Origin: Daucus carota subsp. sativus
Lineage: Eukaryota > Streptophyta > Magnoliopsida > Apiales > Apiaceae
Length of the DNA: 64,000 nucleotides
Direction: 5' to 3'
Assembly: GCF_001625215.2 (NCBI RefSeq)
Contig: NC_030383.2
Location: forward strand, 56,534,949-56,598,948
The position numbers and the translations under genes are program-made. Under the pieces are notes generated by a model. That model saw only the letters and a list, made by a program, of their open reading frames with translations. It searched no databases and was not told where the DNA came from. This document shows, piece after piece, positions 14,330 to 61,205 of this stretch (its first letter is position 1; the number at the start of each line of letters is the position of its first letter).

Positions 14330-14565
14330 CTCCCTCTGTCTCAAAATAAATGTCACTTTGATTTTTTTCACGTAATTTGATATGCAAAAAAGTCATACTT
14401 CTACATATTATTTTTAAAAATTTCTTTTTTCTGAATAAAAGTTTAACATCTATATTTTTATTCAGAAAAAGAAATTTTGAAAAATAATGTGTAGAAGTAT
14501 GTTTTTCATGCACCTTAAATTACGTGCATAAAGTTAAAGCGACACTTATAATGGGACATAGGGAG
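14330..14565. mobile_element. Stowaway-like MITE
   Basis: TA-flanked, with left end CTCCCTCTGTCTCAAAATAA and right end AATGGGACATAGGGAG. The interior forms a strong foldback (TCTTTTTTCTGAATAAAAG against its complement near 14450-14480). Confidence 0.8.
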
Positions 14566-14719
14566 TATTAAAAATAACGCACATTGTTGAAGTTGAATTT
14601 AGATAAACATGTCCTAAATCATTAGAACATCATATTTTATATTATATTTGACACTCCAACTACGACACCATTTTCAGAACTCCGATGGATGATATTTTGT
14701 AATTAACTCTTGATAAATA

Positions 14720-15144
14720 CTCAGTCCGTCGTCCCAGCCATTTGTATACGTTCACTGTTTGCACACATTTCGAGACTCTCATAAAGTATAGTTCTATAAT
14801 GTTTTTTCAAAATTTTCTTTTTTTAATAAAAGTTTAAATATCAAACTTTTATTCAAAATAAAAAATTTTAAAAAAAATACTATGCAATTATACTTTAAAC
14901 GAGTCTCTTAAAAAGCATGTCAAAATGTAATGTAGGGATTATGGTTAATATTTTGAGACTCTTATAAAATATACTTACGTAATATATATATTTTCATGAA
15001 AATTTCTGGAAAAAGAGTTTGACATTTAAATTTTTATTCAAAAAAAGAAATTTTTTTTAAAAAAACGTTATAGAACTATACTTTACAAGAGCCTCAAAAT
15101 GCGTGCAAATAATGTACGTAAACAATCTGGCGGGACGGAGAGAG
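14720..15144. mobile_element. Stowaway-like MITE, possibly composite
   Basis: TA-flanked, with left end CTCAGTCCGTCGTCCCAGCC and right end GGCGGGACGGAGAGAG. At 425 bp it is nearly twice its neighbours. A second foldback inside (about 14940-15110, both arms carrying a TTTGACATTTAAA-like core) suggests two related elements fused or nested. Confidence 0.7.
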
Positions 15145-15390
15145 TATATAATTGTTGCATTGTGCACCTCGTTGGTCCGTTAGACGCGTCACTTTACGTT
15201 TTTTTCGTTAGAAGTCTCAGGTAGTTTGGACAATTGGACAATTTTTAAAAAATTATTTATAAATAAATTTTTATTTAATTTTTTTACCCTCTAAACGATA
15301 TTTTTGAAATTTTTTAAAGAATGAAAGTTGTAGAAAACGAAAAGATCTTTTTAAAATAATAAAATTCAATTTTTTATACCAAATAAGATA

Positions 15391-15623
15391 CTCCATCTGT
15401 TCCTTTTTAGTTCTCACTTTAACTTTTCACACGTAAATTTAAGGTGATAAAAAAACAAACTTCCACTCATTATTTTATAATTTTTTTAATGAATAAAAAT
15501 ATAAACTTTAAACTTTAATTCAGAAAAAGAAAATTTCAAAAATAATAAGTGGAACTATGTTTTTTAATCACCTTAAATTACATGTAAAAAGTCAAAATCA
15601 CAACTAAAAAAGGAGGGAAGGAG
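15391..15623. mobile_element. Stowaway-like MITE
   Basis: TA-flanked, with left end CTCCATCTGTTCCTTTTTAG and right end AAAAAGGAGGGAAGGAG. It has an inverted AT-rich interior. Confidence 0.75.
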
Positions 15624-43576: not shown

Positions 43577-44242
43577 CTTTCGTGATGAGCTATTAACCAA
43601 AAAACCCAACTAACTTGTCACTTTTTTGCCAAAAAACCTTTAAACTTTTTTTTCACCAATAACCCCAAAACTCCAACCCGAATTCGTATTTTATAGGTCG
43701 AATTCGTGTCGGGTTGTTGGGTCGGGTCCAATATTGCCACCCCTAAGTGTAACATCCCAACCAAACCTGTGAACTCTAGGAAAACATGAAAAGTTGTTCC
43801 ATCTCCTTAATTTTGTATTGAACGACGTCTGAAATAACATTCCATCTGTTAATATTTTCACACACCCTCTGATTATGTGAAAACGATAACCCCATTAATT
43901 TATTTCGAACATCAACCTCAGCCTTTACAATAATTTGCCAATATCACACATCTTCACTTGTTTTTATTTTATTGTTTAAATCTAAACTAACAAATATCAT
44001 ATTATAAATTATTCATATAGATGACTAGGCGGTATGCGGCACACACGTGTGTTAAAAGATACAAATCAGTGAAAGATACATGACAAGTCAGATTGGTAGA
44101 TTTAACCATGGTTTATTTCGTATTTACTTTTATATTTTTAATAAATTTATTGGAGTTGTTGAAGAAAACAGAAGTTCAAAGGTTTTTTGGCAAAAATTTG
44201 ACAAGTTGATAGGGTTTTTTGGTTAATAACTCTTTCGTGATG
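43577..44242. mobile_element. MULE-type MITE nested in the insert
   Basis: The element spans 43588-44231 (644 bp). Inverted ends of about 60 bp start AGCTATTAACCAAAAAACCC on the left and end GGGTTTTTTGGTTAATAACT on the right. A perfect 11-bp duplication CTTTCGTGATG lies at 43577-43587 and 44232-44242. Long ends with a 9-11 bp target duplication suit Mutator-like elements. Confidence 0.85.
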
Positions 44243-46089: not shown

Positions 46090-46750
46090 ATATTGGGATA
46101 GGATCGAATAAAAACTTTTTTAAGTTACAAACTTACAAACTATTTTTTTGAATTTTTTTATTCTCCCAACATTTTAGTCCTTAGTTATATTAAGTATTTA
46201 TGTTGAATATAATTGAAAAAACATCACAATTTTAAAAATAACGCATAAATAAATCCTGCATTCAACAAATTTGTAACTGGGGTTCAACATTGGGGGTAGA
46301 ACATTAATTATCGTGTTGAATATATTTATAAAGATGTTTAAACTATACCTCTAGGGTTTGGGTAGGGTATGAAAACATAAATATTGGTTATATAATACGT
46401 TTAACTTAGTTCTTATATTGAAAAGTTAGTTTATGTACTTCTCCAACACAATTTTAATCGATGTTCAACAAAAAATTGTAAAAAAATGTTGAACTCAAAT
46501 TATATATGTGTTGAACAAGAAAAGTTTGTAAACTATACCTCTAGGGTTTGGGTAGGGTATGAAAACATAAATATTGGTTATATAATACGTTTAACTTAGT
46601 TCTTATATTGAAAAGTTAGTTTATGTACTTCTCCAACACAATTTTAATCGATGTTCAACAAAAAATTGTAAAAAAATGTTGAACTCAAATTATATATGTG
46701 TTGAACAAGAAAAGTTTGTAAGTTTGTACCAGAAGCTTCCCCTATATATA
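46090..46750. mobile_element. Possible MITE containing a perfect 190-bp tandem repeat
   Basis: The left edge has TTGGGATAGGATCGAATAAA followed by ACAAACTTACAAAC. The right edge has GTTTGTAAGTTTGTACC and GAAGCTTCCCCTATATAT, an imperfect inverse. Between them a 190-bp unit starting AAACTATACCTCTAGGGTTT occurs twice in a row. The unit is at 46340-46529 and 46530-46719, with no difference seen. Confidence 0.6.
46340..46719. repeat. Perfect 190-bp tandem duplication
   Basis: Two identical head-to-tail copies, about 580 bp upstream of the ATG of P450 gene 1. Identity implies a very recent event or an assembly artefact. Confidence 0.92.
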
Positions 46751-47296: not shown

Positions 47297-49647
47297 ATGG
47301 TACCAGACCAACAACTATTGTTCCTGTCCTTGTGCACTCTAATCTCTGTCTTAGTTTTTCTGTATGTATGGTTTTCAACAAGAACAACCGGCAAAAATCT
47401 GCCACCTTCTCCTCGAAAATTACCTATAATTGGAAACCTTCATCAGGTCAACCAAGACCCTCATGTAGCACTAAGATCTTTGTCTCAAAAATATGGTCCT
47501 GTCATGCAACTCCACTTTGGTAGTGTTCCTGTTCTTGTTGTGTCCTCAGCTGATGCAGCTAAGGAGATCATGAAGACCCATGATCTTGCTTTCGCGAACA
47601 GGCCTGACTCGACTATCTGGAGTAGGATTTTCTATAAGGGCAAGGACGTGGCCTTTGCTCCCTATACTGAATATTGGAGACAAGTGAAAAGTATTTGTGT
47701 TCTTCAGCTCCTGAGTACCAAAAGAGTTCGATCATTTCACAATGTAAGAGAACAAGAAGTAGGCCTTTTGGTTGAACATATCAGAGATTCGGGTTCAGAT
47801 ATAGTGAATTTGAGTGATTTGACCTATACACTTTTGAGTAATGTGGTGTCCAGGATTGCTCTAGGGAAAAAATATACTAATTCTACTGGAGACGGCGAGG
47901 AAAATTCATTTAGGGAACTGTTTCAGAATATTGCTCAGTTGATTGGTTATTTCAGTTTTAGTGATTATATTCCCTGGCTGTACTGGATTGATTCTTTAAG
48001 CGGTCTGAAGGGGAGGGTTGAGAAAGCAGCTAATGAGATTGATGCTTTCCTAGAAGGTGTGATCAGAGATCACAGTACTGCATTAAGTAATGGGGCTTCA
48101 AGCGATGACCTTCTGAAAACTTTGCTTGAGATTCAGAAACAGGATTCTGATTCTGCCTTCTCTATTGATAATGATTCAATTAAAGGCGTTATCTTGGTAG
48201 GTATAATAATTTTATCTGCTCTTATTTTCAGATGATCTTTTTATACCCTTAAATCACCAGCTTGTAATTTGTAGTCCAAATAAATTTTTTATTGTAACAG
48301 GGCATGTAGGATTTTAGGGATAATTAATTTATACGTCCTTGAACTTTGGTCCATTTTTGATTCGCATCCTTGAACTAAGTTTGTCAATTTATGCATACTC
48401 AAACTTTGTAAATTTCCAATTAAGGTCATTCCGTCAGTTTTTGACTAACGGAAGTTAGTCAATTAGGGTTTTTAATTTGAGGGTTTTCGATTCGTTCATG
48501 GATTGATGAAATTGATGGTATGGGAAGTTTCGGGAGATCAAACCGAACCGATTAATGTAGGTTTCAATGATGGAGGATTGCCGGAATGGTGGCAATGTCC
48601 CCGCCGGCCGGAAAATGGCCATTGATTCCGGCCATCATTCCGGCAATCCTCCGCCATTGAAACCTACATGAATCTCTTCGGTTTGACCTCCCGAAACTTC
48701 CCATACCATCAATTTCAACAATCCATTAACGAGTCGAAAACCCCCAAATTCAAAACCCTAATTACTAACTTCTGTTAGTCAAAAACTGACGGAAGGACCT
48801 GAATTGGAAATTTACAAAGTTTGAGGATGCATAAATTGACAAACTTAGTTCAAGGATGCGAATCAAAAATGGACCAAAGTTCAAGGACGTATAAATTAAT
48901 TATCCCTAGGATTTTATTTATAGATTGAAGACTCAAGACTAAACCATCGTTAATATTGGATTTGGCCTTAACAACAGCCATTTATGCGTGTTACTTTTCA
49001 ATTAATTAGTCATGTGACATGTTTTATCTATCTTGTAGAATATGTACTTTGATGGGACTGATTCAACATCAGCAGTATTAGAGTGGACAATGGCAGCATT
49101 GATTAAACACCCGGACATCATGTATAAGTTGAAGAATGAGGTGAGAGAGATAGGAAGGGGGAAATCAAGAATTAATGGGGATGATCTAGAGCAAATGCCC
49201 TACTTGAGAGCTGTGATTAAGGAAAGTATGCGACTTTATACTCCAGTTCCGCTACTAGTAGCTAGAGAAGCGATGCAGGATGTGAAAGTAATGGGATACG
49301 ACATAAAAGCTGGAACGCAGGTACTGATCAATGCCTGGGCAATTGCAACAGACCCTGCTGTGTGGGATAACCCAGAGAAATTCATCCCTGAGAGATTCTT
49401 GAACAGCCCTCTTGATTATAAAGGTCTGCATTTCGAGTTCATTCCATTCGGAGCAGGCAGAAGAGGCTGCCCTGGAATCCAATATGCCATGGCCATCAAT
49501 GAGCTTGCATTAGCAAACTTGGTGCACGTATTTGATTTTGCATTGCCTGATGGAAAAAAATTCGAGGATTTGGATATGGCTTCTGAGACAGGAATGACTG
49601 TTCATAAAAAATCACCTCTGCTGGTAATTGCAACGCCACGCATCTAG
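47297..49647 (+). CDS. Cytochrome P450, CYP71 type (array gene 1)
   Basis: Two exons, 47297-48196 and 49039-49647 (phase 0, CTTG/GTAGGT and TTGTAG/AATATG), giving 502 aa, the standard CYP71 gene form. An N-terminal membrane anchor (about 6-26) is followed by the hinge [13 protein letters not shown], which places the enzyme on the ER with a cytosolic catalytic domain fed by P450 reductase. The I-helix reads FDGTDSTS (about 304-311), E-x-x-R is KESMR (Glu362, Arg365), then PERF (417-420) and the haem loop [11 protein letters not shown] with Cys444. All catalytic landmarks are present. The sequence style recalls Apiaceae CYP71AJ/CYP71A enzymes of coumarin or terpenoid metabolism; the substrate is unknown. 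The 842-bp intron contains a 590-bp foldback element absent from the sister gene. Gene 2 differs by about 21 residues in exon 1 and 5 in exon 2. Confidence 0.95.
48307..48916. mobile_element. 590-bp foldback element in intron of P450 gene 1
   Basis: Element 48317-48906, starting GGGATAATTAATTTATACGT and ending in its inverse ACGTATAAATTAATTATCCC. The two arms, each about 290 bp, are nearly complementary to the centre near 48612. Target duplication TAGGATTTTA (10 bp) is at 48307-48316 and 48907-48916. Gene 2 at 53053-53065 keeps one undisturbed TAGGATTTTATTT, that is, the empty site. Long arms and a 9-10 bp duplication suggest a Mutator-type foldback MITE. It is transcribed within the P450 pre-mRNA. 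Confidence 0.93.
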
Positions 49648-50284: not shown

Positions 50285-50725
50285 AACTGAGCATTGGCAA
50301 CCTTGGTTTTCCAATGTTAGAGAAGAATTAAAGCCTTTTGGTCGAAAATAGTAAATTTGAGCTTTTTGTTCACTACACTTCTCACTAATGCATTGTCTAG
50401 GATTGCTCTAGGAATTTGTACTGAATGCGGCGAAGAATATGTTAGAATATAATATGATCCTCGCAAGCTCTCTTCCCGAAAATTTTGAGTTTTAGGAGAA
50501 TTGTTCACTAACATTGGTATCACAGACGCCCTAGATTAAAATTACAAAAACTGTTCTAGAATATAGCTCAATTGATAGGGTATCCTATTTTAGTAACTAT
50601 ATTCCATGGCTATACTGGTTGATTACTTGATTCTCTAAACGGTACAAAGGGAAGGGTTGAGAAAGCAGCTACTGAGATACCAGAAATACCATACCAGCTC
50701 TGCCCTGTCTATCGATAATGATTGA
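50285..50725 (+). pseudogene. P450 exon-1 relic downstream of gene 1
   Basis: Scattered similarity to CYP71 exon 1: GTTAGAGAAGAA (the VREE segment), TTTTGGTCGAAAATA, TTTGTTCACTACACTTCTCA, TCTAGGATTGCTCTAGGAAT (SRIALG), then ATAGCTCAATTGATAGGGTA and CATGGCTATACTGG (AQLIGY, WLYW). It has several stops and frame changes and no exon 2. The same relic recurs at 54470-54870 after gene 2, so it was already broken when the unit duplicated. Confidence 0.85.
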
Positions 50726-52035: not shown

Positions 52036-53791
52036 ATGGTACTAGACCAACAACTATTGTTCCTGTCCTTGCGCTCTCTATTCTTTGTCTTAGTTTTTCT
52101 GTATATATGGTTTTCAACCAGAACAACCGGCAAAAATCTGCCTCCTTCTCCTCGAAAATTACCTATAATTGGAAATCTTCATCAGGTCAAACAAGACCCG
52201 CATGTAGCACTAAGATCTTTGTCTCAAAAATATGGTCCTGTCATGCAACTCCACTTCGGAAGTGTGCCTGTTCTTGTTGTGTCCTCAGCTGATGCAGCTA
52301 AGGAGATCATGAAGACCCATGATCTCACTTTCGCGAACAGGCCTGACTCGACTATCTGGAGCAGAATCTTCTATAATGGCAAGGACGTGTCCTTTGCTCC
52401 TTATAGTGAATACTGGAGACAGGTGAAAAGTATTTGTGTCACTCAGCTGCTGAGTAACAAAAGAGTTCAATCATTTCACAACGTTAGAGAACAAGAAGTA
52501 GGCCTTTTGGTCCAACATATCAAAGATTCGGGTTCAGATATAGTAAATTTGAGTGATTTGACCTATACACTTCAGAGTAATGTGGTGTCCAGGATTGCTC
52601 TAGGAAAAAAATATACTAATTCTACTGAAGACGGCGAGGAAAATTCATTTAGGGAACTGTTTCAGAATATAGCTCAGTTGATTGGTTATTTCAGTTTTAG
52701 TGATTATATTCCATGGCTGTACTGGATTGATTCTTTAAGCGGTCTGAAGGGGAGGGTTGAGAAAGCAGCTAATGAGATCGATGCTTTCCTAGAAGGTGTG
52801 ATCAGAGATCACAGTAGTGCATTAAGTAGCGGTGCTTCAAGCGATGACCTTCTGAAAACTTTGCTTGAGATTCAGAAACAGGATTCAGATTCTGCCTTCT
52901 CTATTGATAATGATTCCATTAAAGGCATTATCTTGGTAGGCACAAAAATTCTATCGGCTCTTATTTTCAGATGATCTTTTCATACCGTTTATTTACTTTT
53001 GTTAAGATATATAGGGTCATGCTTCACCACAAATTTTTTTTCGTAACAGGTCATGTAGGATTTTATTTATAGATTGAAGATTAAACCATCGTTAATTACT
53101 TGGACTCCGCCTTAACAACAGCCATTTATGAATGTTACTTTTCACTTAATTGGTCATTTGACATGTTTTATCTATCTTGTAGAATATGTACTTTAATGGG
53201 ACTGATTCAACATCAGCAGTATTGGAGTGGACAATGGCAGCATTGATTAAACACCCGGACATCATGTATAAGTTGAAGAATGAGGTGAGAGAGATAGGAA
53301 GGGGGAAATCAAGAATTGATGGGGATGATCTGGAGCAAATGCCCTACTTGAGAGCCGTGATTAAGGAAAGTATGAGACTTTATACTCCAGTTCCGCTACT
53401 AGTAGCTAGAGAAGCGATGCAGGATGTGAAAGTCATGGGATACGACATGAAAGCTGGAACGCAGGTACTGATCAATGCTTGGGCAATTGCAACAGACCCT
53501 GCTTTGTGGGATAACCCAGAGGAATTTATCCCTGAGAGATTCTTGAACAGCCCTCTTGATTATAAAGGTCTGCATTTCGAGTTCATTCCATTCGGAGCAG
53601 GAAGAAGAGGCTGCCCTGGAATCCAATATGCCATGGCCATCAATGAGCTTGCATTAGCAAACTTGGTGCACGTATTTGATTTTGCATTGCCTGATGGAAA
53701 AAAATTTGAGGATTTGGATATGGCTTCTGAGACAGGAATGACTGTTCATAAAAAATCACCTCTACTGGTAATTGCAACTCCACGCATCTAG
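52036..53791 (+). CDS. Cytochrome P450, CYP71 type (array gene 2)
   Basis: Two exons, 52036-52935 and 53183-53791, 502 aa, same splice phase as gene 1. All landmarks are present: anchor, [33 protein letters not shown] with Cys444. The I-helix is FNGTDSTS, where the other three genes have FDGTDSTS or FDGTDTTS. The Asp-to-Asn change lies just before the conserved G-x-D-[ST] and may tune the active site. The 247-bp intron lacks the foldback found in gene 1 and shows the empty site. Exon 2 is about 97 percent identical to gene 1 in protein, but the middle of exon 1 matches gene 3 better, a sign of gene conversion. A P450 relic follows, as after gene 1. Confidence 0.95.
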
Positions 53792-54469: not shown

Positions 54470-54870
54470 TGAGCATTGGTAACCTTGATTTCCCAACGTT
54501 AGAGAAGAAGTAAGCCTTTTGGTCGAAAATATCAGAAGTTGGGGATCAAAAATAGTGACTTTGAGCGTTTTGTTCTATACACTTCTCAATAATGCAATGT
54601 CTAGGATTGCTCTAGGAATTTTACTTAACGCGGTGAAGAATGTGTTAGAACATAATATGATCCTCGCAGATCCATTTCCTAACACTTTTGAGATTTTAGG
54701 AGAATTGGTCAGTAACATGGTATCAGAGCTAAGACGTGCGAGATCACAAGAACTGTTCTAGAATATAGCTCAATTGATAGGGTATCCAGTTTTAGTAACT
54801 ATAATCCATGGCTATACTGGTTGATTACTTGATTCTCTATCGATAATGATTGAACATTTATATGGTGTTT
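54470..54870 (+). pseudogene. P450 exon-1 relic downstream of gene 2
   Basis: Duplicate of the 50285-50725 relic. A short frame reads MVENIRSWGSKIVTLSVLFY and LLNNAMSRIALG, matching the [20 protein letters not shown] region of gene 4. It then passes into unrelated frame and stops, and ends with AGCTCAATTGATAGGGTATC. No haem region. It is better preserved than the copy after gene 1. Confidence 0.87.
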
Positions 54871-55735: not shown

Positions 55736-57483
55736 ATGGACCAACAATCTTTACTTCTCTCTTCATGTTCTTTCTTCTTTGTCTTAGTTTTCCTCTATAC
55801 CAGGTTCTCAACCAGCAAAACACCTCTAAAAAACCCGCCACCTTCTCCTCCAAAGCTACCTATAATTGGAAACCTTCATCAGATCAACCAAGACCCGCAC
55901 CTAGCACTGAGATCTCTGGCTCAAAAATATGGTCCTGTCATGCAACTCCACTTCGGAAGTGTTCCTGTTCTTGTTGTGTCCTCAGCTGATGCAGCTAAGG
56001 AGATCATGAAGACCCATGATCTTGCTTTCGCGAACAGGCCTGACTCGACTATCTGGAGCAGAATCTTCTATAATGGCAAGGACGTGTCCTTTGCTCCGTA
56101 TAGTGAATACTGGAGACAGGTGAAAATGATTTGTGTCACTCAGCTGCTGAGTAACAAAAGAGTGCGTTCATTTCACAATGTTAGGGAACAAGAAGTGGCC
56201 CTTTTAGTCCAAAATATTAAAGATTCGAGATCAAAAATAATTAATTTGAGTGAGTTGTTTTCGACACATCTAGGCAATGTGGTGTCTAGGGTGGTCTTGG
56301 GAAGAAAATATGCTATGACTACTAAAGATGGTGTAGAAAATTCATTTCGGGAACTGTTTCAGAATATTGCTCAGTTGATAGGCTATTTCAGCTTTGGTGA
56401 TTATATTCCATGGCTATTCTGGGTCGATTCTCTAACCGGGTTGAAGGGAAGGATTGAGAAGGCATTCTTCGAGGCTGATGCGTTTCTTGAAGGTGTTGTC
56501 AGAGATCACAGTGTTGCATTGGATAACGGGGCTTCAAGTGATGACCTATTGTACAATTTGCTAGAGATTCAGAAACAGGACAGCAATCCTGATTTTTCTA
56601 TCGATAACGAGTCCATTAAAGGACTAATCTTGGTAACTACACAAAATCTCTGTAACTTTAGCTTATCTCATGATCATTTCTATATTTCATAGAGCGTGTT
56701 TTTTTAATAACTTATAAGTCATCTGTAATATAAAATTACGCAGACAGACAATTTAAACTGATCAATTATCACTTTAAGTCACTGTAAGTCATAAGTTATA
56801 ATTTTTAGACTGCCGGGCTCATAGTTCTTGTCATCAGTTGATAATTCGTTTGACATTTTATATATGCCTTGCAGAATATGTTCTTTGATGGAACTGATTC
56901 GACGTCTATAGTATTAGAGTGGACTATGGCAGCACTCTTACAAAATCCAAACGTCATGTGTAAATTGCAAAATGAAGTGAGGGAGATAGGAAGGGGAAAA
57001 GCAACAATATCTGAGGATGATTTGGAGAAAATGCACTACTTGAAAGCAGTGATCAAGGAGAGTACACGGATTTATACTCCACTTCCGCTACTAGTTGCTA
57101 GACAAGCAATGCAAGATGCAAAGGTTATGGGATACGACATTAAAGTCGGGACACAAGTACTGATTAATGCTTGGGCAATCGCAAAAGACCCTGCTGTGTG
57201 GGATAAGCCAGAGGAATTCATCCCTGAGAGATTCTTGAACAGTCCTACTGATTTTAAAGGCCTACATTTTGAGTTAATTCCGTTTGGAGCAGGGCGGAGG
57301 GGCTGCCCTGGAATTCAATATGCCATGGCCATCAATGAGCTCACATTAGCAAACTTGGTGCACATATTTGATTTTGCATTGCCTGATGGAAAGAGACTGG
57401 AAGATCTGGACATGGCTGCTGAGTCTGGCATGACTCTCCATAAAAAATCTCCTCTGTTGGTGATTGCAACACCGCGTGTCTAA
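55736..57483 (+). CDS. Cytochrome P450, CYP71 type (array gene 3)
   Basis: Two exons, 55736-56632 and 56875-57483, giving 501 aa. The start MDQQSLLLS is chosen by alignment with its neighbours and because a TATA box lies between it and an upstream in-frame Met. Anchor about 6-25, hinge [15 protein letters not shown]-helix [11 protein letters not shown]-x-x-R as KESTR, PERF, haem loop [11 protein letters not shown]. It is the most divergent exon 2 of the four ([31 protein letters not shown]), so it may have a different substrate range. Its exon 1 from about 55950 to 56170 is almost the same as that of gene 2. The intron is 242 bp with an ordinary structure. Confidence 0.95.
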
Positions 57484-57794: not shown

Positions 57795-58625
57795 CACGCA
57801 TCCAACCTTCTTGCATCTTTCCACCAGATTAATCAAGACCCGCACATATCACTTAAATCTTTGGCTAAAAATAAAGGGTCCTGTCATGCAAACTGCACCT
57901 GGGAGTGTTCCTGTTCTTGCTGTGTCTTCAGCTAATGCAGCTATGAGCTATGCAGATTATGAAATAATGAAAACGCAGAATCTTGCTTTCGCAAGCAGGC
58001 CTGTCTCAATAGAGCAATGCTACATGCACAAAATTAGGTACAAAATTTTCCACAAAATGATATGACACTTAATATGGGATGTTTTAATTGGTGCTATTTA
58101 CGCGAATACAAGAGCCCATTAATCAAAACTCATGTCATTTTGTGAAAGATTTTGTATCCAATTTTGTGGATGAAGTATTTTCTGTCTCCATATTTTGGAG
58201 TTAAATCCTCTATAACGGTAGGAAGTGGCCTTTGCTCCTTATACTGAATATTGGATGCAGATGAAAAGTATTTGTGTTTTCCAGCTCCTGAAAACAAAAG
58301 AGCTCGTTCATTTCCCAACGTTAGAAAGGAAGTATTTTTTTCCTGTTAAAAAAGGTTGGTCCTTTTTTTTTTTGCTAAATAGGAGGCATTTTGGTCGAAT
58401 TATCAGAGTTTCAGGTGTTTGGGGTCCAAGAATAGTAAATCTGAGTGCTTTATGTTTACACTTGTCAATACCAATACTACTGTAGTCGTTGAAGAAAATG
58501 CACTTGAGGAACTGTTTCAGAAAATAGCTCAAATAACAGTTGGTGATTAATTTACATTCCATGGCTACACTGGGATAATTCTCTTAGAAGTTTGAAGGGA
58601 AGGGTTGAAGGAAAGGGAAGGTGGT
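57795..58625 (+). pseudogene. P450 exon-1 pseudogene between genes 3 and 4
   Basis: Similarity runs in order along CYP71 exon 1: [16 protein letters not shown], then (frame change) PGSVPVLAVSSANAA, IMKTQNLAFASRPVS, then [29 protein letters not shown] and, further on, ELFQKIAQ. Frames change several times, parts are missing and there is no exon 2. A foldback insert of about 160 bp interrupts it (58020-58179). Confidence 0.88.
58020..58179. mobile_element. Small foldback MITE inside the P450 pseudogene
   Basis: The left arm contains GCACAAAATTAGGTACAAAA and CCACAAAATGATATGACA. The right arm carries the inverse (GTCATTTTGTGAAAGATTTT, ATCCAATTTTGTGGATG). Target duplication not determined. It breaks the P450 relic between the SRPVS and VAFAPY segments. 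Confidence 0.6.
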
Positions 58626-59495
58626 TTCCCATGTACTTGTTCTCCTTTGATATACTCCCACACACAATACCATCCCATTGCTTCCGGGGCAGATTGGTTT
58701 GGCACTTATTTTAAAGGCTTTTATTATTGGCTTCTGGACTTCCGAGGTGGTCAGTCCCCGAAAGTTAGTTAAGGATTTTAACTTTTTTCGGTGACTTGAT
58801 TTTATATATAAGACACTTTAAACGATAATTTATAAAATTTTATTATTCAAACACATAAATTAGAAATTACTTTTCGCTTATAAGTAACTTCTCACGTGAA
58901 CAATAACCACTTCTTTTGAGTTATTAAAAAGGCCCGAAATATAGTCTTTTAACTTATTTTAAAAAATTGTATAATTTTTTTTTTCTGAGTTTGAGAACTG
59001 ATAGAAACCCCCAAAGTCACCCATGATTATTATCCCTTAGATGGCGGAGGCAGTGATGTAGAGTGGCTAACAACTGCAAATGTCATTTCGTCCTCTTGTC
59101 CGAATACATTCAGATATGATCTAAGGTTGCAGCTAATGCTTGCTAACAGTCTCATCAACTCTTTAGTAAACGAGATAAAAGAGCCGTCACATAGTTGTCT
59201 CCGTACCCACAATTGCATGCATTATTGACTTCTTGCACACTATCTTATTCATAGACAACATAAGACTGAACGGTTCCAATTTACGTAAGCTGATTTCAAA
59301 CCAAAGCGGACCCAGAAACTGTTAATGCAAAGTGGAAAGGTACACTTGAGGCTAGTAATGTCAGGACTGTGTAGTGAATGCACAATTCTTCTGACTTGAG
59401 AGAGTTGAGTTTCAACAATAAAATTTATGTCACATAACACATAATTCTGTTGTGTAGTTCTTGATATGAATCCCCCAAGTGTTGGAACCTTGATG
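58626..59495. other. Intergenic, upstream of P450 gene 4
   Basis: No gene recognised. It contains the promoter region of gene 4, with no clear TATA box. Confidence 0.45.
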
Positions 59496-61205
59496 ATGGA
59501 GCAACAAGCCTTGTTTCTGTCTTCATGTTTGATGTTCTTTGTCTTGGCTTTTCTGTATATATGGTTGTCAGCCAGCAAAACATCTAGCAAAAATCTGCCA
59601 CCGTCTCCTGGGAAGTTACCGATAATTGGTAATCTTCATCAGGTCAATCAAGATCCCCACATAGCACTAAGATCTTTGGCTAGAAAATATGGTCCTGTCA
59701 TGCAGCTTCAGTTTGGAAGTGTGCCTGTTCTTGTTGTGTCTTCAGCTGATGCAGCTAAGGAGATTATGAAAACGCATGATCTTGCTTTCGCGAACAGGCC
59801 TAAGTCTAGTATCTGGGATAGGATCTTCTATAATGGTAAGGACGTGGTATTTGCTCCGTATAGTGAATATTGGAGACAGGTCAAAAGTATTTGTGTTCTT
59901 CAGCTGCTGAGTAACAAAAGGGTTAGATCATTTCAGACAGTTAGAGAAGAAGAGGTAGCCCTTTTAGTGGAAAATATTAGAGAATCTGGCTCAAAAGCAG
60001 TGAATTTGAGTGAGTTGTTTTACGCGCTTCTGAGTAATGTTGTTTCCAGGATTGCCTTGGGGAGGAAATATGCTATTACTACTGAAGGTGGTAAAGGAAA
60101 TTCATTTAAGGAGCTGTTTCAGAATATAGCTCAGTTAATAGGTTATTTCAGTGTTGGTGATTATATTCCATGGCTGTTCTGGATTGATTCTGTAAGCGGT
60201 CTAAAGGGAAGGGTGGAGAAAGCAGCTAGCGAGGCTGATTTGTTTCTTGAAAGTGTTATTAAAGATCACAGTATTGCATTGGATAACGGAGCTTCTAGCG
60301 ACGATCTGTTATACAATTTGCTGGAGATTCAGAAACAGGAAACTAATTCTGCCTTTTCTATTGACAAGGATTCCATAAAAGGCGTAATCTTGGTAAGTCA
60401 CAAACTGTCTCCAGCCTTAGCTTATGATCATCAGACTAATGTGTTTCTACAAACACAATAAATAGTCTTTGTTAATTACTTTCATACACGCATGTTGTAT
60501 ATAAAAAAATTTGTTCCAAGACTCAAAATTTACTAGGGCAGTCATTTGTTGTATATTATTTCTAATATCATTTGACGTCTTAAATCTGCCTTGTAGAATA
60601 TGTTCTTTGATGGAACTGATACGACATCTGCAGTATTGGAGTGGACTATGGCAGCGTTGATTAAACATCCAGATGTCATGTGTAAATTGAAGAATGAGGT
60701 GAGAGAGATAGGAAGGGGAAAATCAAGGATAAATGGGGATGATTTAGAGAATATGCACTACTTGAAAGCAGTGGTTAAGGAGAGTATGCGACTTTATACT
60801 CCAGTTCCGCTACTAGTTGCCAGAGAAGCAATGCAGGATGTGAAGGTGATGGGATACGACGTAAAAGCTGGGACACAAGTACTGATTAATGCTTGGGCAA
60901 TTGCAACAGACCCTGCTATGTGGGATAACCCAGAGGAATTTATCCCTGAGAGATTCTTGAATAATCCTGTGGATTATAAAGGTCTGCACTTTGAGTTCAT
61001 TCCATTTGGAGCAGGGCGGAGGGGCTGCCCTGGAATCCAATATGCCATGGCCATCAATGAGCTAGCAGTAGCAAACTTGGTGCACATATTTGATTTTGCA
61101 TTGCCTGATGGAAGAAGATTGGAAGATCTGGACCTGACTTCAGAGACAGGTATGACTCTTCATAAAAAGTCTCCTCTTCTGGTGATTGCAACATCACGAG
61201 TCTAG
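59496..61205 (+). CDS. Cytochrome P450, CYP71 type (array gene 4)
   Basis: Two exons, 59496-60392 and 60597-61205, giving 501 aa. The start [10 protein letters not shown] aligns with MDQQ of gene 3; in-frame Met codons at 59466 and 59493 are possible alternatives. Anchor about 6-25, hinge [14 protein letters not shown]-helix [19 protein letters not shown], haem loop [11 protein letters not shown]. Every catalytic landmark is intact. Exon 2 is nearer to genes 1 and 2 than gene 3 is ([16 protein letters not shown]). Exon 1 differs from the others in the substrate-recognition region after the B helix ([20 protein letters not shown]). Its intron is 204 bp. It is the rightmost member of the array. 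Confidence 0.95.

Follow-up and report, generated by a model that had tools for sequence, protein, structure and literature searches.

A 64,000-nucleotide stretch of the carrot genome (Daucus carota subsp. sativus, contig NC_030383.2, positions 56,534,949 to 56,598,948; hereafter the window) harbours a tandem cluster of cytochrome P450 genes, one of which, gene 1, carries in its intron a 590-bp hairpin insert that is absent from the intron of its sister, gene 2. The locus hence raises the questions of what this insert is, whether it arrived before or after the two genes had separated, and whether it has any bearing on gene 1. The structure of the insert, its target duplication, the empty site in gene 2, the family to which it belongs and the recent amplification of that family were each observed, and the insert is very probably a Mutator-type miniature inverted-repeat transposable element (MITE) that inserted after the duplication of genes 1 and 2.

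The hairpin reported at this place in an earlier note was recovered at 48317-48906, within the intron of an intact gene 1. Its description as near-perfect held for the long inverted repeat as such and for the outermost 79 bp, which pair without a break, but not for the whole, as the arms of the window copy are 92.6% identical overall (central 30 bp excluded); in an arm-to-arm alignment including the loop, 268 of 301 columns were identical. The predicted fold placed 542 of the 590 nt in pairs with an energy of -444 kcal/mol; 100 shuffled sequences averaged -139.5 kcal/mol (sd 6.8; z -44.8), and none of them reached an energy as low. Judged by this fold and by its intronic place, the element would be capable of giving a long base-paired transcript. 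A scan by length revealed no open reading frame (ORF) of 100 aa or more in the element, which on this basis combines the inverted ends, short length and lack of coding capacity of a MITE.

Both flanks of the element consist of the identical 10-bp sequence TAGGATTTTA, such that the target duplication is exact, as the earlier note had claimed. On the plus strand of the window this sequence was found at the two flanks and at 53056-53065 alone, with no occurrence on the minus strand; gene 2 therefore does keep a single copy of the target, although the position previously given for it, 53053-53065, was too wide. Mutator target duplications may be up to 11 bp long, and the 10 bp of the window copy falls within the 8-11 bp or so expected of this superfamily. 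Long inverted ends and duplications of 8-10 bp have been attributed to Mutator-like elements (MULEs) in the literature (PMC5225508).

A search of the carrot genome for further copies, which the earlier note had proposed, placed the family at no fewer than 40 sites, the window copy included, with 86-100% identity and on all nine chromosomes; 40 of 67 candidates were scored, and the count is a lower bound. The ends of the family resemble GGGATAATTAATTTATA. A 33-base end pattern, whose reversed control gave 0 matches, added three end pairs (C4:17670226-17670758, C8:22518243-22518822 and C9:37288658-37289237) and two lone ends (C8:3125728 and C4:10197730). Many similar and dispersed copies, as are characteristic of a Mutator-type MITE, were thus present. 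Target duplications were surveyed in the 39 fetched copies other than that of the window, and were exact and of 9-10 bp in 31 of them: a script detected 29 (16 of 9 bp and 13 of 10 bp), whilst two others (copies L035 and L034) were found by reading the flanks. Another three copies (L022, L024 and L026) had duplications with one mismatch. When flanks were paired across different copies as a control, 2 of 1482 pairings matched, both of them involving L037 with L038; because these represent two copies of one duplicated segment, the 31 copies correspond to 30 insertions. The A+T content of the 29 scripted duplications was 91%, relative to 67% in the wider flanks.

The surroundings of the copies were sampled with 10 ORFs from 9 of the 39 loci, plus two more ORFs from L015. 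Pfam matches were obtained for 4 of the 10 sampled ORFs, comprising two pieces of GMC oxidoreductase (L030), a pantoate transferase (L015) and a plant mobile domain (L010). Copy L015 is also intronic: the exon-like pieces on either side of it follow one another in a pantoate hydroxymethyltransferase gene and match neighbouring parts (93-162 and 162-212) of the profile PF02548 on one strand. In another instance, L016 (C9) and L018 (C2) have 3.6 kb in common that is 99.5% identical and runs in opposite directions in the two stretches retrieved, hence the MITE there probably resides within a larger duplicated or mobile segment.

The window copy fell within a cluster of 14 copies that differ from their consensus by a mean of 0.52%. 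Five of its 590 sites (0.85%) depart from that consensus, two of these differences being common to other copies, and its nearest relative, L002, is at a distance of 0.68%. The arms of the subfamily consensus are themselves only 94% identical to each other, indicating that the source element already carried most of the arm mismatches. A second subfamily, of four copies, was separated from the main one by a mean distance of 11%; in single copies, arm identity ranged from 85.6% to 94.3% in the main subfamily and from 81.8% to 82.9% in the four others.

Genes 1 and 2, the latter being the closest paralogue of gene 1 among the three other P450 genes of the window, have a synonymous divergence (Ks) of 0.13 and a nonsynonymous divergence (Ka) of 0.023. 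Since the element lies 0.85% from its consensus against a Ks of 0.13 between the genes, the insertion is the younger event, in agreement with the order proposed in the earlier note, and the remaining two P450 genes of the window have no comparable insert in their introns. Per lineage, the comparison of 0.85% with approximately 6.6% gives the insertion about one-eighth the age of the duplication, a ratio with a wide error because only 5 changes were counted. At mutation rates of 7e-9 or 1.3e-8 per site per year, the insertion would date to approximately 1.2 million years (0.4-2.8) or 0.65 million years (0.2-1.5) ago, and the duplication to approximately 9.4 or 5.1 million years ago, respectively. 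Very probably, a non-autonomous copy from a recently amplified source, presumably mobilised in trans by the transposase of a MULE, inserted near the middle of the gene 1 intron once genes 1 and 2 had separated.

MULE transposase matches are abundant in the genome, with 150 of the 150 scored places (the best 150 of 813 candidates) above the Pfam cut-off; these places were compared with the ends of the family by eye only. Several observations weigh against the Mutator assignment. The target duplication was missing in 5 of the 39 surveyed copies (the pair L016 and L018, which belong to one duplicated segment, and L019, L023 and L036). Three end-pattern searches, which returned 85 matches (reversed control, 0), 103 matches (control, 21; 100 of the 103 listed) and 57 matches (control, 0), brought up no autonomous MULE that shares the ends of the family. 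Facing end pairs among the matches listed were, by eye, MITE copies, no facing partner occurred within 100 kb of the other listed ends, and eight transposase loci of 3285 bp were without matching ends, displaying only 12-base chance matches. The assignment is accordingly based on the length of the duplications, the structure of the ends and the occurrence of MULEs in the genome, rather than on a parent sharing those ends. The only longer facing pair listed, at C7:35011632-35024207, was considered as an autonomous candidate and rejected, as it represents one MITE copy (L057/L058) interrupted by a retrotransposon whose two 552-bp repeats are identical. This split copy retains its own 9-bp target duplication, and the same interval encodes a 675-aa ORF with zinc-knuckle motifs that appears gag-like by eye.

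As regards consequences for RNA, removal of the predicted introns leaves an intact 502-aa protein for gene 1 and likewise for gene 2. Within the intron of gene 1 the element is preceded by 120 bases and followed by 132. A structure prediction for the complete intron has 0 element bases pairing outside the element, whilst 25 pairs form between the left and right flanks and both the donor GT and the acceptor AG are unpaired. Carrot Mutator-like MITEs have been found to be enriched in introns and usually spliced out (PMC8227079), and the element is likely to be removed together with the intron during normal splicing. It is somewhat more probable than its contrary that part of any transcribed hairpin would be processed, mainly into 24-nt small interfering RNAs (siRNAs), and would direct RNA-directed DNA methylation of the element's own family. 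Of the 634 inverted repeats that lie no more than 3 kb from a gene in Arabidopsis Col-0, approximately 486 yield 24-nt siRNAs, and approximately 68% of those repeats are transposon-derived, notably from MuDR-type MITEs (PMC12595863); DCL3 is able to cut MITE stems to 24-nt siRNAs without RDR2 (PMC10004981). In maize, most predicted hairpins located in genes are intronic and accompany more small RNAs, the annotation in that study not including MITEs (PMC10760457). Counting against siRNA production, a review states that siRNA output has been demonstrated for only a small percentage of known MITEs (PMC10004981), and our estimate was slightly lowered on that account.

A rival explanation, which we regard as quite improbable, is that the intronic hairpin acts as a regulator of gene 1, its double-stranded RNA or small RNAs lowering or re-splicing gene 1 relative to gene 2. 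A very strong predicted hairpin in the intron of an intact gene would suit such a role, as would the 24-nt siRNAs and altered methylation or chromatin loops reported at genes near MITE hairpins in other plants (PMC10004981, PMC12595863). Conversely, the splice sites are 120 and 132 nt away, the coding sequence is intact, and splicing is reported to remove most Mutator-like MITEs from carrot introns as a rule (PMC8227079). Furthermore, no 21-mer of the element was found elsewhere in the window, such that no exon there would offer its small RNAs a perfect match. Any measurable effect on gene 1 was considered unlikely. The comparison of expression between genes 1 and 2 proposed in the earlier note, in which equal expression together with a lack of small RNAs from the arms would speak against regulation, is confounded: upstream of gene 1, at 46339-46718 (579-958 bp before the ATG), a 190-bp unit stands twice in tandem without a mismatch, and the window has no other match to this unit, hence none upstream of gene 2. 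This unit is a high-copy genomic repeat (best 40 of 755 candidates scored), and with the tandem pair upstream of gene 1 only, a difference in expression between the genes could not be credited to the hairpin alone.

Singleton changes across 32 copies were also inspected for a trace of methylation. C>T or G>A changes accounted for 64 of the 120, distributed as 18 at 48 CG sites, 43 at 156 CHH sites, 2 at 31 CHG sites and 1 at an edge, whilst transitions at A/T sites numbered 20 at 351 sites; the CG and CHG rates differed (p 0.003). The C>T excess fits methylation, but the low CHG count does not do so in any simple way; the comparison had no control region, and no conclusion was drawn from it. 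That the intronic copies, in the P450 gene and at L015, might serve as a Mu-killer-like source of double-stranded RNA silencing their own family in trans, with P450 transcription setting the strength of silencing, appears very doubtful.

An alternative order of events, in which the element was already in place when the genes duplicated and was then lost from gene 2, either through precise excision or because an empty copy converted the site, was judged extremely unlikely. Precise excision is known for the mosquito MULE Muta1 in a yeast assay (PMC5225508), and the introns of genes 1 and 2 differ at 22 of 108 aligned bases to the left of the site and at 10 of 115 to the right (Fisher p 0.02), a difference that leaves room for gene conversion between the two genes. 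This contrast between 48197-48306 and 48917-49038 may stem from ambiguity in the alignment, or from a tract of conversion that ends close to the site. Arguing against filling before the duplication are the distance of only 0.68% between the window copy and its nearest relative, relative to the gene Ks of 0.13, and the other two P450 introns of the window, which are without such an insert. An origin as a fragment captured from a host gene and duplicated in inverse orientation (Pack-MULE-like), or as a nascent microRNA gene, suggested by the tight arm fold and by weak Rfam microRNA matches over the hairpin, is exceedingly improbable, given that every place listed in a search with the inner arm lay, by eye, within a family copy (best 40 of 44 candidates), such that no host donor gene was seen, and that the Rfam matches, to three different families, were far below the gathering scores (39.3/100, 35.9/73 and 24.9/80 bits). 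Membership in a known Rfam microRNA family was rejected, as the 7 matches up to an E-value of 5 included none near a gathering score and were ascribed to long-hairpin effects. Insertion of a Mutator-type MITE into gene 1 after the duplication hence remains the preferred reading, and the features concerned are collected in Table 1.

Table 1. Positions in the window of the element, its target site and P450 genes 1 and 2; intron borders were inferred from the sequence.
Feature	Position	Strand	Remarks
Gene 1 exon 1	47297..48196	+	P450, PF00067
Gene 1 intron, 842 bp	48197..49038	+	contains the element; inferred borders
Left 10-bp target-site duplication, TAGGATTTTA	48307..48316	+	
Foldback MITE, very probably Mutator-type, 590 bp	48317..48906	.	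arms ~290 bp, outer 79 bp perfectly paired
Right 10-bp target-site duplication, TAGGATTTTA	48907..48916	+	
Gene 1 exon 2	49039..49647	+	
Gene 2 exon 1	52036..52935	+	93% aa identity with gene 1 exon 1
Gene 2 intron, 247 bp	52936..53182	+	without the element; inferred borders
Empty site, lone TAGGATTTTA in gene 2 intron	53056..53065	+	
Gene 2 exon 2	53183..53791	+	97.5% aa identity with gene 1 exon 2

The gene 1 protein matched PF00067 with an E-value of 4e-103, and the best match of the P450 among solved structures was ferruginol synthase. The P450 genes of the window may be CYP71AJ-like. Two more P450 genes of the same tandem cluster are located at 55739-57480 and 59490-61202, with amino acid identities to gene 1 of 77.7-86.5%, and P450-like fragments were observed at 50542-50679, 54489-54785 and 57807-58639. 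Elsewhere in the window, a second probable Mutator-type non-autonomous element was present at 43587-44232, with inverted ends of 67 nt (87% identical) and an exact 9-bp flanking repeat, TTTCGTGAT. Nested inverted repeats with arms of 74 nt and 83 nt at 14412-15542 possibly represent another non-autonomous element, for which a clear target duplication was not seen.

A recent MITE insertion in a P450 intron is nothing unusual for a plant genome. The present one is clean, comes with a built-in comparison in the empty paralogue, and is usable as an insertion-polymorphism marker in the P450 cluster; it would acquire greater importance only with proof that gene 1 or the MITE family is controlled by small RNAs derived from this intron. 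The insertion is not mentioned in the titles and abstract openings of the literature searched, a type of search that does not test prior cataloguing. Amongst known systems, the closest are the Mutator-like MITEs of carrot itself, of which 128 families with 6308 copies, a mean length of 429 bp and 1343 intronic copies have been reported (PMC8227079). The element resembles these in its target duplication, inverted ends, absence of coding sequence, intronic position and host genome, and differs in being almost wholly palindromic and, at 590 bp, longer than their mean. With the gene-near inverted repeats of Arabidopsis, many of which derive from MuDR-type MITEs (PMC12595863), it has in common a foldback structure, the same superfamily and a position in or near a gene; 24-nt siRNAs are documented for those repeats and may arise from the carrot element too. 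Unlike Mu killer of maize (PMC3440606), the element is one of approximately 40 MITEs and has no ORF of 100 aa or more. Nonetheless, a long hairpin transcript arising from a gene, as proposed for Mu killer, is possible for the carrot element too, and in either case the transcript could match the ends of the family concerned.
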